Assembly (NCBI GenBank): GCA_026707585.1
Contig: JAPOWQ010000041.1
Location: 62,001-126,000 of the forward strand
Direction: 5' to 3'
DNA: 64,000 nt
Source of the DNA: Chloroflexota bacterium
Lineage (GTDB): Bacteria; Chloroflexota; UBA11872
Under the pieces are notes generated by a model, which saw only the letters and a list, made by a program, of their open reading frames with translations, was not told where the DNA came from and ran no database searches. Positions 6,717 through 11,263 of this stretch are shown here, piece by piece; within the stretch, counting starts at the first letter, position 1, and the number at the start of each line of letters is the position of its first letter. A program made the position numbers and the translations under genes.

Positions 6717-6826
6717 TTCGGGTGGCGCGCGGCTGCCGATTCTTCATAGAATCAGCGCACCTACCTGCGCGGGGAGTCCAGGTGGGCTCATAACCCGGCC
6801 GCCAGGGCGGCGCGTGGAGGCCAGGC

Positions 6827-8608
6827 ATGGCAGTTACTGAGCGAAAAGACACGGCAGGGCACGTGATCGAGATCCTCGATGAGGAATTCGAGGACTTCAC
6901 CACCGAGGCCCGGGCCTACCTGGCCGGTCAGCGCGTCGAAGAGAAGTTCATCGGCTACCGGCTGAAGCAGGGCGTCTACGGCCAGCGCCAGCCCAACGTG
7001 CAGATGTTGCGCGTAAAGCTGCCGATGGGCGGCGTCACGGCTGACCAGTTGGACGCCTTTGCCGAGGTGGCCGAGCGGTTCGCTCCGCTGAAGAAGGGCC
7101 ACATCACCACGCGCGAGAACATCCAGCTGCACCACATCCCGCTGCCGCTGGCGTGGGAAGCGCTGCGGGTGCTGGGTCGCGCCGGGCTGTCGACCCGGGA
7201 AGCCTGTGGCAACACCGTGCGCAACGTGACCGGCGACCCCTGGGCGGGCGTGGCCGACGACGAGACATTCGACGCGACGCCGTACGCGGGGGCCTTCGTG
7301 CGCTACTTCGTGCGCAACCCATTGACGCAGTTGCTGCCGCGGAAATTCAAGGTCTCGTTCAGCGGATCCGATACCGACCGAACGATCGGCGAGATTCACG
7401 ACCTGGCGTTCTTCTCGACCATCCGCGAAGTGGACGGCAAGGAAGAGCGCGGGTTCCGGATGCTGACCGGCGGCGGGCTGTCGATCATGCCCAAGCACGC
7501 CTTCGAGCTGTACGACTTCGTGCCGCTCAGCGACTACCTGCGGGTATCCGAGGCCGTGCTGCGAATCTTCAACCGGTCCGACGAATTGCGCCGCAACCGG
7601 GCCAAGGCGCGGATCAAGTTCCTGGTGCACCGGGTCGGTATCGAGAGATTCCGCGAGATGGTCGAGGCCGAGTTGACCGGCGCCTGGGCGCAGCGCGACT
7701 ACGACCTGGACGACCTGGTGTTCATCGACAACGAGGAAGCGGACGCGCCGGAGATGCCGGCCGAGGCGCCGGTGATCGCCGAGGAAGACGCCGACCTCTT
7801 TGAGCGGTTCTGCTCCACGAACGTGGCGCGGCAGGTGCAGGCCGGCTACTCCACCATGGAAGTCAAGGTCAACCAGGGCGACCTGAGTCCCGAACAGTTC
7901 CGTGGTCTGGCCGACATCCTGCGCCGCTACGGCGCCAGTCGCGCGCGCACCACCCACTGGCAGAACATTGTGCTGCGGTGGATTCCGGACAACAGCGTGT
8001 ACCCCGTCTGGCGCGAACTGCGCGCGCTGGGCCTCGGCAATCCGGGCGCCTACGAGGTCAACGACGTGGTGGCCTGCCCCGGCACCGACAGCTGCAAGCT
8101 GGGGATTACTTCCTCGATGGGCCTCAACAAGGCCATCCAGGCGAAGGTCGAGGAAATGCACATCCAGGATCCGCTGACGCGACAGATCCTGATCAACATG
8201 AGCGGCTGCCCCAACTCCTGCGGCATGCACCACGTGGGCAACATCGGCTTCCACGGCGCGGCCATCAGGACCGGCGGGCGCCAGGTTCCGGCCTACCACA
8301 CCTTCATCGGCGGCAACCGCCGCTACGGATCCCCCATGCGGCTGGGCATGCTCCTGCGCACCCGGGTGCCCGCCAAGCGCGCGCCGACGGTGGTCGAGCG
8401 GCTGATCCTGGACTACGAGGAAAACCGCGAAAGCGACGACGAGTCCTTCAACGAGTACGTGGACCGTTACGACCGGCTCTACTTCGACGGTCTCCTGAAG
8501 GACCTGGCGCTGCCGCCCGAATACGACGACGAGCCCGAGCACTTTGTGGACTGGGACCGCGACCGGCTGTACGTGCTGGAACGCGGCGAGGGCGAATGCG
8601 CGGTCTGA
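6827..8608 (+). CDS. sir: Siroheme [4Fe-4S] sulfite reductase (ferredoxin-type)
   Basis: 593 residues, ATG behind a GGAGG. It has the duplicated nitrite/sulfite reductase architecture: FGVYGQRQP..QMLRVK-type ferredoxin-like half-domains, the GHITTRENIQLHHI substrate-site region and REACGNTVRNVTGDP. Siroheme/[4Fe-4S] ligands are CPGTDSC (C-x5-C) and SGCPNSCG (C-x3-C). It reduces sulfite to sulfide with six electrons in the cytoplasm. Ferredoxin-dependent nitrite reductases look alike; the sulfite assignment rests on the neighbouring sulfate-activation and siroheme genes. A small Cys-rich reading frame starts inside its last codons. Confidence 0.85.
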   Translation: MAVTERKDTAGHVIEILDEEFEDFTTEARAYLAGQRVEEKFIGYRLKQGVYGQRQPNVQMLRVKLPMGGVTADQLDAFAEVAERFAPLKKGHITTRENIQLHHIPLPLAWEALRVLGRAGLSTREACGNTVRNVTGDPWAGVADDETFDATPYAGAFVRYFVRNPLTQLLPRKFKVSFSGSDTDRTIGEIHDLAFFSTIREVDGKEERGFRMLTGGGLSIMPKHAFELYDFVPLSDYLRVSEAVLRIFNRSDELRRNRAKARIKFLVHRVGIERFREMVEAELTGAWAQRDYDLDDLVFIDNEEADAPEMPAEAPVIAEEDADLFERFCSTNVARQVQAGYSTMEVKVNQGDLSPEQFRGLADILRRYGASRARTTHWQNIVLRWIPDNSVYPVWRELRALGLGNPGAYEVNDVVACPGTDSCKLGITSSMGLNKAIQAKVEEMHIQDPLTRQILINMSGCPNSCGMHHVGNIGFHGAAIRTGGRQVPAYHTFIGGNRRYGSPMRLGMLLRTRVPAKRAPTVVERLILDYEENRESDDESFNEYVDRYDRLYFDGLLKDLALPPEYDDEPEHFVDWDRDRLYVLERGEGECAV

Positions 8609-8757
8609 CTCCAGACATACCGTCCGACCTATCGCCGACGCAGCGCGGCCAGCGGCTGCATGCGTCGGCGGTTATTGTCGCGACTATTCTCGAGCGTGGC
8701 AGCGCGTCCTGTTGTTGCCACTGCACCTGCGCCTGTATACGGGGCGTGGTGGTCTAG
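8596..8757 (+). CDS. Cys-rich small ORF, candidate cysteine attenuator leader peptide
   Basis: A 53-codon frame starts at ATG 8596, overlapping the last four codons and stop of the sulfite reductase gene, behind GGCGAGGGCGA. It ends at TAG 8755-8757 with a tail reading SASCCCHCTCACIRGVVV. Six Cys codons fall in nine positions (8710-8736). Cys is rare elsewhere in the window, and the next genes are cysH, cysC and sat. Poly-Cys upstream ORFs that act as cysteine-responsive attenuators are known in mycobacteria. A hairpin starts about six bases after the last Cys codon. No homologue is known to me; translation is unproven. Confidence 0.6.
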   Translation: MRGLTPDIPSDLSPTQRGQRLHASAVIVATILERGSASCCCHCTCACIRGVVV

Positions 8758-8872
8758 GCCTCTCACGCCCGCCAAGTCCTGGTCATGCCAGGCACGTCTC
8801 GACGCCGGCCGGGCGTTCGCGCCCAGGCCGCGTGATCGGCTCCACCTGACCACGCCGTAGAGCGGCGTCGAG
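8742..8872 (+). promoter_or_regulatory. Structured leader between the Cys-rich ORF and cysH
   Basis: The 323-base gap 8609-8931 holds the small ORF and, after it, several inverted repeats: GGGCGTG 8742-8748 with CACGCCC 8764-8770 (spanning the small ORF's stop); CCTGG with CCAGG around 8779-8793; GGCCGGGCG-TTCG-CGCCC-A-GGCC at 8807-8829, with a stable TTCG tetraloop; and CTCGACGCC 8798-8806 with GGCGTCGAG 8864-8872, enclosing the tetraloop hairpin. No U-tract follows, so a translational or Rho-type mechanism is more likely than an intrinsic terminator. Confidence 0.5.
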
Positions 8873-8931
8873 CACCTGAAATCGACCTGCGACGCGAAGG
8901 CCCCCGGCTGCAGGGCCTGCCGGCCGAGAAT

Positions 8932-9573
8932 GTGCTGCGCGAAGTCGTGCGCGCCTACGCGCCGGACGTGGCGCTGTCGTGCTCCTTCGGCGGCCCCAGC
9001 GGCATGGTGCTGGTGGACATGCTGGCGCGGCAGGACCTGCTGGACGACGTCGAGGTGTATTACCTGGACACCGGCCTGCTCTTTCAGGCCGCGCACGAGG
9101 TGCGCGAAGAGATCGAGCAGCGCTACGGATTCGAGGCCGCGGCGTATCTGCCGGACTTGTCGGTGGCCGAACAGGCGGAGCTATACGGCGACGCGCTGTG
9201 GGACCGCGACCCCGACACCTGTTGCGGGATCCGCAAGGTCGGGCCGAACGCGCGGGCGCTGGCCGACAAGCGGGCCTGGATTACGGGCGTGCGGCGCGAC
9301 CAGTCGGCGGGGCGGGCGGCGACGCCGGTGATCGAGTGGAACGCGAAGTTCGGGCTGGTCAAGGTCGCGCCGCTGAGCGGCTGGACCGAAACCGAAATCT
9401 GGGACTACATCCGGCGCCACGACGTGCCGTACAACCGGCTGCACGACGAGGGCTACCCGAGCCTGGGCTGCAATACGCGCTGCACCTCGCGCCCGCTGCC
9501 GGGCGAGTCGCTGCGGAGCGGTCGCTGGCGAGGCCTCGACAAGACCGAATGCGGTCTGCACGGAAACACCTAG
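8932..9573 (+). CDS. cysH: Phosphoadenylyl/adenylyl-sulfate reductase (CysH type)
   Basis: 213 residues from GTG 8932. It has the nucleotide-binding region [25 protein letters not shown], the CCGIRKVGP cysteine pair, ITGVRRDQS, the second cysteine pair GCNTRC and the C-terminal ECGLH with the catalytic cysteine. Four cluster cysteines imply a [4Fe-4S] enzyme, normally APS-specific. The second pair is C-x3-C rather than the usual C-x2-C. Coding similarity seems to extend upstream of the GTG ([15 protein letters not shown]), but no ATG, GTG or TTG lies there; the frame is open only back to TGA 8833-8835, so a CTG at 8887 is possible. The next gene starts two bases after its stop. Confidence 0.8.
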
Positions 9574-9575
9574 GG

Positions 9576-10178
9576 ATGGTCAAGTCGATGGACTGCAATG
9601 GATTTGCCGCCTACGGGCGGCCGGAGCCGGCCGGGCTCACGATCTGGCTGACGGGCCTGTCGGGCGCGGGCAAGACCACGCTGGCGGAGCGGCTGACGCC
9701 GGAGCTGGCGTGTCGAGGGCACCGCGTGGAGTCGCTGGACGGCGACGTGGTGCGCACACACCTGAGCAAGGGCCTGGGGTTCACGCGCGAAGACCGCGAC
9801 GAGAACATCCGGCGAATTGCGTGGGTGGCGGCGCTGGGAACGCGACACGGCGCCACGATGCTGGTGTCGGCAATCTCGCCTTATGCGGCGGGTCGACGCG
9901 AAGCGCGGGAGCAGATCGGCCAATTCGTCGAGGTCTACGTGAAGTGCTCGCTTGACGAGTTGATCGAGCGCGACCCCAAGGGGCTCTATGCACGCGCCCT
10001 GGCCGGTGAGATCGAGAACTTCACCGGGGTTAGCGATCCCTACGAAGCGCCGGTGAGACCGGAGATCGTGGTGGAAACGGACATGGAGTCGGTGGAGCAA
10101 AGCGCGGCCAAGATCCTGGAAGGCCTGGAACGCCTGGGGCACCTGGCGCCGGTGACCGACTGCGTGGCGGCGGCCTGA
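9576..10178 (+). CDS. cysC: Adenylylsulfate kinase
   Basis: 200 residues. P-loop [17 protein letters not shown], then [32 protein letters not shown], and [25 protein letters not shown], the standard APS kinase signature. It phosphorylates APS to PAPS with ATP. An ATG at 9588 is an alternative start. Its TGA shares one base with the ATG of sat. Having APS kinase next to a [4Fe-4S] reductase suggests that PAPS also serves sulfotransferases, or that the reductase takes PAPS. Confidence 0.9.
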
Positions 10179-11263
10179 TGGCGGCCGTGGCAGCGCCCGC
10201 GGCGATCAGGCTCTCGCCGCGGCAACTGGCTGACCTGGAGCTGTTTCGGGTGGGCGGCTATCGCCCGCTCACCGGGTTTATGACGCAGCCGGAGTACGCG
10301 GCTGTTCTGAAGGACATGCACCTGCCGGACGGTCAGCCCTGGCCACTGCCGATCACGCTGGCCGTGGATGCGGAGACGGCGGCGCTGGTGCGCGAGGGGG
10401 ACCGGCTGGACCTGCTGGACGGCGCCGGGCACCGTCGCGCTGCGCTGGAAGTGCGACAGCGCTTCCACTACGACAAGACGGCGGAGGCGCAAGCCGTATA
10501 CCGAACGACCGACGCCGAACATCCCGGCGTGGCCGCGCTCTACGCCCAGGGCGAGGTGCTGCTGGGCGGGCCGGTGACGTGTTTCGGCGACTCGCCCGAC
10601 CGGGCGGAGGATCCGCGGCACCTGACGCCGGCGCAGCTGCGTGAACGGTTTGATGCGCTGGGTTGGCGGACGGTCGTCGGATTTCAGACTCGGAATCCGA
10701 TTCACCGGGCGCACGAGTACATCCAGAAGGCCGCGCTGGAGATGGTGGACGGGCTGCTGGTGCATCCGCTGGTGGGCGTGACCAAGGAAGACGACGTGCC
10801 GGCAGACGTGCGCTGGCGCTGCTACGAGGTGCTGCTGGACGGCTACTTCCCGCGCGACCGGGTGGTGCTGGCGGCGTTGCCGGCGGCCATGCGCTACGCG
10901 GGGCCGCGCGAGGCGGTGTTTCACGCGCTGGTGCGGCGGAACTATGGCTGCACACACTTCATCGTGGGCCGCGACCACGCGGGCGTGGGGGATTACTACG
11001 GCCCGCACGACGCGCAGCACATCTTTCACGAGTTTGACGCCGGTGAACTGGGCATAACGCCGCTCTTCTTCGAGCACGCGTTCTGGTGCACGGAATGCGC
11101 GGGGATGGGGTCGGCGAAGACCTGTCCGCACGACGGGGCCAACCACGTGTTCCTGAGCGGGACGCGGCTGCGGGGGCTGCTGAGCGAAGGGCAGCGACCG
11201 CCGGCGGAGTTCACGCGTCCGGAGGTCGCAGCCGTGCTGGCGGAGGCCTACGCCCAGCGCTGA
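10178..11263 (+). CDS. sat: Sulfate adenylyltransferase (ATP sulfurylase)
   Basis: 361 residues. It contains VVGFQTRNPIHRAHEYIQK (the QTRNP and HRAH ATP/sulfate-site motifs), VHPLVGVTKEDDVP, the GRDHAGVGDYYGPHDAQ loop and CSE-type C-terminal SGTRLRGLLSEGQRPPAEF. It makes APS from ATP and sulfate, the first step of assimilation. It is monomeric-type, with no fused kinase domain. Its start overlaps the cysC stop, so the two are translationally coupled. Confidence 0.92.
   Translation: MAAVAAPAAIRLSPRQLADLELFRVGGYRPLTGFMTQPEYAAVLKDMHLPDGQPWPLPITLAVDAETAALVREGDRLDLLDGAGHRRAALEVRQRFHYDKTAEAQAVYRTTDAEHPGVAALYAQGEVLLGGPVTCFGDSPDRAEDPRHLTPAQLRERFDALGWRTVVGFQTRNPIHRAHEYIQKAALEMVDGLLVHPLVGVTKEDDVPADVRWRCYEVLLDGYFPRDRVVLAALPAAMRYAGPREAVFHALVRRNYGCTHFIVGRDHAGVGDYYGPHDAQHIFHEFDAGELGITPLFFEHAFWCTECAGMGSAKTCPHDGANHVFLSGTRLRGLLSEGQRPPAEFTRPEVAAVLAEAYAQR

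Follow-up and report, generated by a model that had tools for sequence, protein, structure and literature searches.

At the locus studied here, a short cysteine-rich open reading frame (uORF) followed by structured RNA lies between two genes of a sir-cysH-cysC-sat operon in a Chloroflexota genome (Table 1; the window is the whole 64,000-nt stretch of DNA analysed). The assignment of cysH, cysC and sat is supported by NCBIfam matches above cut-off. For sir, the matches to the NirA and CysI models of NCBIfam fall below cut-off, so that the 'sulfite' in its name rests on operon context. Further genes follow sat in the window: hemC, a uroporphyrinogen-III methyltransferase gene and a hemD-like gene. 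Upstream of sir, at 6743-6786, an TTCATAGAATC element occurs with, after it, a hairpin of the CCTACCTG...CAGGTAGG type; the arrangement is conserved in eight relatives and is probably the promoter and 5' leader of sir.

The uORF begins within the final codons of sir, with its ATG at 8596-8598 and the sir stop at 8606-8608, and translates as MRGLTPDIPSDLSPTQRGQRLHASAVIVATILERGSASCCCHCTCACIRGVVV up to its stop codon. The original prediction, which placed a cysteine attenuator before cysH, had described this 53-codon frame, its overlap with the sir stop and six Cys codons in nine, along with the hairpin here called S1, a hairpin with a TTCG loop and the closing pairing S3; each of these elements was recovered exactly where it had been placed.

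Table 1. Features of the operon and its leader (window coordinates).
Feature	Position	Strand	Description
sir	6827..8608	+	Siroheme-type nitrite/sulfite reductase, 5' of the leader; Pfam NIR_SIR and NIR_SIR_ferr
uORF	8596..8757	+	Leader peptide of 53 aa, from an ATG within the last sir codons to a TAG
Cys run	8710..8736	+	CCCHCTCAC, six Cys codons per nine
Invariant block	8720..8772	+	53 nt without change in 11 species; covers the last Cys codons, IRGVVV, the stop and S1
Hairpin S1	8742..8770	+	GGGCGTG 8742-8748 / CACGCCC 8764-8770, inward extension GGU/GCC; uORF stop in CUAG apical loop
Hairpin S2	8778..8792	+	CCTGG 8778-8782 / CCAGG 8788-8792
Closing stem S3	8798..8872	+	CTCGACGCC 8798-8806 / GGCGTCGAG 8864-8872; encloses S3a and S3b
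Hairpin S3a	8807..8829	+	TTCG loop in the window
Hairpin S3b	8830..8855	+	
Deletion junction	8876..8885	+	10-nt repeat CTGAAATCGA at the junction of a 73-nt deletion
cysH frame	8881..9573	+	(P)APS reductase; PRK02090, TIGR00434
cysC	9579..10178	+	APS kinase, start approximate; PRK00889, TIGR00455
sat	10178..11263	+	Sulfate adenylyltransferase; PRK04149, TIGR00339

The window itself holds an altered copy of this region. Between two copies of CTGAAATCGA it has lost the 73 nt in which a further hairpin (S4) lies along with the GGAGG ribosome site and the GTG start codon of cysH, all of which are present in the 10 other leader-bearing species. Measured between the end of the typed core and the IDL residues of cysH (or the equivalent residues), the spacing is 178-180 nt in these 10 species versus 105 in the window, where the first ATG, GTG or TTG in the cysH frame is the GTG at 8932. 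The window genome contains a single CysH match. The consequence may be that cysH translation is poor or takes another route in this genome; otherwise the deletion would be a minority variant or a product of the assembly. The mechanism should be judged on the intact relatives rather than on the window.

Distribution and conservation of the leader

Our genus sample comprised 13 genomes, that of the window and those of 12 other species. The leader precedes cysH in 11 of them, in one copy each, and the comparison with related genomes that had been proposed as a check of the Cys codons and their frame came out in favour of both. When a covariance model built from the 11 leaders (R1) was run over 400 Chloroflexota genomes, it returned the same 11 genomes, once each, and nothing else. 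The nearest named records with the leader are Chloroflexi or Chloroflexota metagenome-assembled genomes, for example SB0662_bin_61, RHO2_bin_72 and CO36386bin_13. Two genomes of the genus lack the leader, as do all six of the sister genus.

But what precedes cysH in other Chloroflexota? At the six CysH loci of the sister genus (L016-L020 and L023), a TTGATAAA...GATCAA palindrome overlaps a promoter-like site 5' of the gene, and this palindrome is absent where the Cys leader is present. In a Herpetosiphon-like genome, so labelled after the near-identical named loci L071, L073 and L076, a SAM riboswitch (RF00162, 78.7 bits) lies before cysH (L027:1200-1312). Among 100 further Chloroflexota CysH upstream regions, which are most but not all of the CysH matches of the wider search, two have a small ORF with four or more Cys in nine codons, compared with three of the reverse strands and 0.9 in shuffles; poly-Cys leaders are therefore not general in the phylum. 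Judging by these sequences, the Chloroflexota Cys leader is a local device. The pattern TGYTGYTGYNNNTGY, tried as a discriminator, was useless over ten genomes.

Within the 11 species, the uORF is kept in an uneven manner. Its length, start and TAG stop are identical in all of them, and each leader contains six to eight Cys codons, confined to the final 18 codons, with relatives having additional Cys at 8701 and/or 8707. The sir codon that forms the uORF ATG is GAA in the 11 leader-bearing genomes and GAG in six of six relatives without the leader. Within the Cys run of the 11-species alignment, codon 36 is TGC or AGC, codon 38 is TCC, TGC or TGT, and codon 40 is TGT and in one case TCT. This alignment spans 825 nt without a gap, and its longest invariant run is the 53-nt block of Table 1, followed by runs of 27 and 26 nt; 111 of the 540 positions in its sir part are variable. 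The front of the peptide is far less constrained: the first 37 residues are poorly conserved and the CCCHCTCAC-like tail is conserved, while the middle of the uORF is variable in 51 of 98 columns, mostly non-synonymously, with start and stop kept in the 11 leaders. The uORF is free of indels, but so is the RNA up to S4, so that this feature does not set the uORF apart. At the level of sequence, the constraint falls on each base of the Cys-rich end, the stop and S1, while the front of the peptide drifts, a pattern that resembles leader peptides in which the end alone would matter.

The Cys-rich uORF is not a product of chance, since an ORF that retains its start, its stop and six to eight Cys codons precedes cysH in 11 of the 13 genus genomes and 53 nt are identical in the 11. 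As a control, we used 69 named CysH loci without the Chloroflexota leader: a small ORF with at least four Cys in nine codons occurs on none of the 69 reverse strands, and shuffles yield 0.6 on average. Other frames across the leader have long open stretches, as this is high-G+C DNA, and none has both start and stop conserved. A further strong hairpin lies within the uORF, 5' of the Cys run, at 8633-8671 (CGCCGACGC / GCGTCGGCG); the folding z for 8600-8740 is -3.5.

RNA structure and models of control

The RNA following the Cys run is predicted to be highly structured. None of 200 dinucleotide shuffles folds as well as the segment 8742-8875 (z -3.2), and the leaders of three relatives, with z values of -4.1, -6.5 and -6.0, also outperform every dinucleotide shuffle. 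S2 is predicted weakly in the window when folded with the window's cysH start, and in ten species S4 forms an extra small hairpin that is followed by GGAGG and the GTG start. Across the 11 species, variable columns outside S1 number 12 of 70 at paired and 18 of 30 at unpaired positions (p 4e-5). Under the consensus structure, 99.0% of cells pair versus 34-43% for slid versions, although it was derived from the same sequences. The compensatory stem changes for which the original prediction recommended looking did not turn up: no pair changed on both sides in the 11 species, and covariation is no better than with the letters of the 3' arms shuffled. In the alignment, the support for the structure is spared stems, not compensatory change. 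Searches with Rfam 15, including T-box, SAM and other riboswitches, gave no match with E<=1 in the window between 5000 and 14000, and at the gathering threshold no match in the leaders of L005 and L012.

A cysteine leader read by ribosomes inside the sir-cysH-cysC-sat operon appears to be the best explanation of these features, and we consider it moderately probable, since frame, start and stop are conserved, cysH is always the gene that follows, and the downstream RNA has structure. Ribosomes leaving sir would initiate at the overlapping uORF and then meet the Cys codons. At plentiful Cys-tRNA, a ribosome would reach the stop codon in the tip of S1 and, given this position in the apical loop, would open the hairpin. 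At scarce Cys-tRNA, it would halt on meeting the first Cys codons, with about 20 bases left before S1, and the hairpin would stay closed. We assume footprint sizes that put the ribosome edge near 8722 when the A site is on the first Cys codon (8710-8712), and at about 8746, reaching the 5' arm of S1, when it is on the last (8734-8736). The original prediction had a stalled ribosome melting S1; with the assumed footprints this applies only to a stall at the last Cys codon, while one at the first leaves 8742-8770 intact. Since an early stall would leave S1 intact and a finishing ribosome would open it, we propose the opposite sign, in which the closed hairpin is the 'on' state and stalling would allow expression of cysH-cysC-sat relative to sir.

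How could the state of S1 reach the downstream genes? A switch in downstream folding, as originally proposed, finds no support in the folding results: ribosome position has hardly any effect on the predicted fold or on how accessible the cysH ribosome site is, and GGAGG keeps a mean unpaired probability of 0.11-0.27 across six ribosome settings in the 10 intact leaders (with pseudoknots outside the model). Nor was a conserved competing fold, as needed for a mutually exclusive antiterminator pairing, found at equilibrium. A long-range alternative pairing of GGGCGTGGT with ACCACGCCC falls short of the S1 fold by 1.3-11.8 kcal/mol in every one of the 11 species, is broken by a mismatch in L007 and L008 and has one end broken in L003. 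A short alternative hairpin, in which the last Cys codons pair with the S1 arm, is improbable in folds without a ribosome; the exceptions are the window (0.41) and L007 and L008 (0.16). An intrinsic terminator, that is, a G+C hairpin with a U-run, was found in none of the nine leaders examined (all of the 11 but L006 and L008); in the window, the scan gave nothing after the uORF, and its sole match past the sir start, at 8694-8707, lies inside the uORF. The original prediction is partly supported: 11 of the 13 genomes keep the Cys-rich frame together with both its ends, and the RNA that follows is structured.

For the output step, our first guess is that transcription ends in a Rho-dependent manner, or by a similar mechanism that needs no U-run, within the untranslated segment preceding cysH (some 165-190 bases in intact species). 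It is a tentative guess, which we consider less likely than not to be right. It draws on the lack of a U-run terminator, on the presence of a Rho gene in all 13 genus genomes and on the suggestion of Rho for terminator-less actinobacterial cys leaders, mycobacterial ones among them (PMC1262725). The leader is only mildly C-rich, and a conserved C-rich Rho site was not demonstrated in it.

Alternatively, the leader could act on translation: the S1 loop after the uORF stop (AGGCCUCU) would pair with the cysH ribosome site (GGAGGUUU) and hide it, and the position of the ribosome would free the loop. Such a pairing would account for the invariant S1 loop, which ranks within the top three partners of the ribosome site in nine of the 10 intact leaders and first in five. 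However, the other five contain better duplexes, part of the loop is already paired inside S1, and complementarity to GGAGG is common, the site having been chosen post hoc. The pairing also requires a pseudoknot, beyond the folding tools used, and overall we regard this form of control as unlikely.

The strong structure, and the fact that 8720-8772 is constrained at every base and not at its codons alone, would also suit an RNA that binds a ligand or protein without being read by ribosomes, its Cys codons being incidental. Yet ATG and stop are conserved, the Cys codons survive TGC/TGT changes, the run sits exactly before a cysteine operon and no Rfam family matches, all of which makes such an RNA quite improbable. 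We give still less credence to a DNA element in the invariant block, either an internal promoter or a regulator site for cysH. By eye, 8712-8741 can be taken for a weak TTGTTG-18-TATACG arrangement, and the sister genus has its promoter-like site before cysH, but a consensus scan finds no promoter, the first hexamer is altered in L011, and the pairing pattern of the downstream RNA speaks against it. A functional small Cys-rich protein, binding metal or serving redox, is likewise very improbable: the conserved tail would fit it, but the poorly conserved front and the lack of any Pfam or NCBIfam match do not, and the tail is conserved at the level of bases, including the stop and the bases beyond.

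Poly-Cys leaders in other phyla and known systems

The Chloroflexota leader is not the only candidate of its kind. Among the 69 control loci, 10 have an upstream small ORF that reaches the same Cys density on the forward strand. The set of 69 excludes L044-L052, which carry the leader itself, L054, and one locus with less than 300 nt upstream, so that 69 of 70 remained; L054 is a named record with the same 68% identity as G002, a genus member without the leader, and its four-Cys stretch is located in the sir region, some 548 nt before cysH. Six of the 10 are Acidobacteria records (L087, L090, L098, L102, L119 and L121, one titled Vicinamibacterales and one Luteitalea), and the others come from Eremiobacterota (L089), Bacteroidetes (L088), Anaerolineae (L109) and Chloroflexi (L122). 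A terminator-like hairpin with a U-run follows eight of the 12 ORF segments, at seven of the 10 loci, by a criterion that 0-2 of 100 shuffles per segment reach. L088 and L122 each have two poly-Cys ORFs in tandem before cysH, with a terminator-like hairpin after both in L088 and after the first in L122.

In the acidobacteriotal class of L098, a poly-Cys ORF occurs in 11 of 28 CysH upstream regions and on none of the 28 reverse strands, and eight of the 11 regions have a terminator-like hairpin. Two of 30 loci were dropped here for short upstream sequence, the three weakest of 33 matches had no locus, and three of the 28 genomes were already among the 69 loci. The Acidobacteria leaders (those above and L267-L287) contain runs such as AACRCCCCPEA, and most have, within about 25-45 nt downstream, a G+C-rich hairpin with a U-run. 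From their sequences, they look like candidate classical cysteine transcription attenuators. They share with the window's leader a poly-Cys uORF before cysH or its operon, but differ in their U-run terminator hairpins and are unrelated in sequence; the poly-Cys leaders elsewhere give the window's leader a functional context.

Finally, the leader can be placed beside systems on record. Candidate cys leader peptides with a proposed role for Rho were put forward in 2005 for Mycobacterium, P. acnes and B. longum (PMC1262725). Like the Chloroflexota leader, they have runs of Cys codons near the stop and no conserved terminator; unlike them, the Chloroflexota leader is strongly structured. Mycobacterial Cys-rich uORFs, described as leaderless in a 2015 study (PMC4633059; see also PMC9094748) and as polycysteine uORFs by Canestrari 2020 (as cited in PMC13236596 and PMC9031893), are likewise short ORFs with Cys codons near the stop, 5' of cysteine or sulfur genes. 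However, they are the first ORFs of their transcripts, whereas the Chloroflexota uORF starts inside sir, between two operon genes, and is followed by a conserved multi-hairpin RNA; a consensus scan gave no promoter from which it might be read as a leaderless ORF. The uORFC-8-2 motif of Rhodobacterales (PMC8632094) shares a uORF with conserved tandem Cys codons within structured RNA, but has two such codons, an intrinsic terminator and cysS downstream in place of cysH. In a flavobacterial transcriptome, leader-peptide attenuation is reported before amino-acid operons, with cysteine unnamed in the available text (PMC9723704). Compared with a classical ribosome-mediated attenuator, the leader has the peptide rich in the pathway amino acid and lacks the intrinsic terminator and antiterminator pairing; compared with a translational attenuator that masks a ribosome site, it lacks a change of accessibility with ribosome position, within a model that leaves out pseudoknots.

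On present evidence, and by analogy, the Chloroflexota leader may work like the actinobacterial, mycobacterial and uORFC-8-2 leaders. In the open PMC literature on cysteine leader peptides and attenuators, as far as its text was available, we recognised no paper on such leaders in Chloroflexota or Acidobacteriota; published cases of cysteine attenuation come from Actinobacteria, chiefly mycobacteria, and, with cysS downstream, from Rhodobacterales (PMC1262725, PMC4633059, PMC8632094). It is possible, although we stop short of calling it probable, that the leader is an intra-operon cysteine attenuator, with a conserved RNA of about 150 bases and no intrinsic terminator, that re-sets cysH-cysC-sat relative to sir and has replaced promoter control in one genus, and that together with the Acidobacteriota leaders it reflects repeated origin across phyla with different output devices. 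Chloroflexota would thereby join the groups with cysteine attenuation, in a variant that lies between cistrons, lacks a terminator and has exceptionally conserved RNA, next to the candidate terminator-type attenuators before cysH that the same search exposed in Acidobacteriota. If this is true, ribosome stalling would control sulfur assimilation in large uncultured groups.
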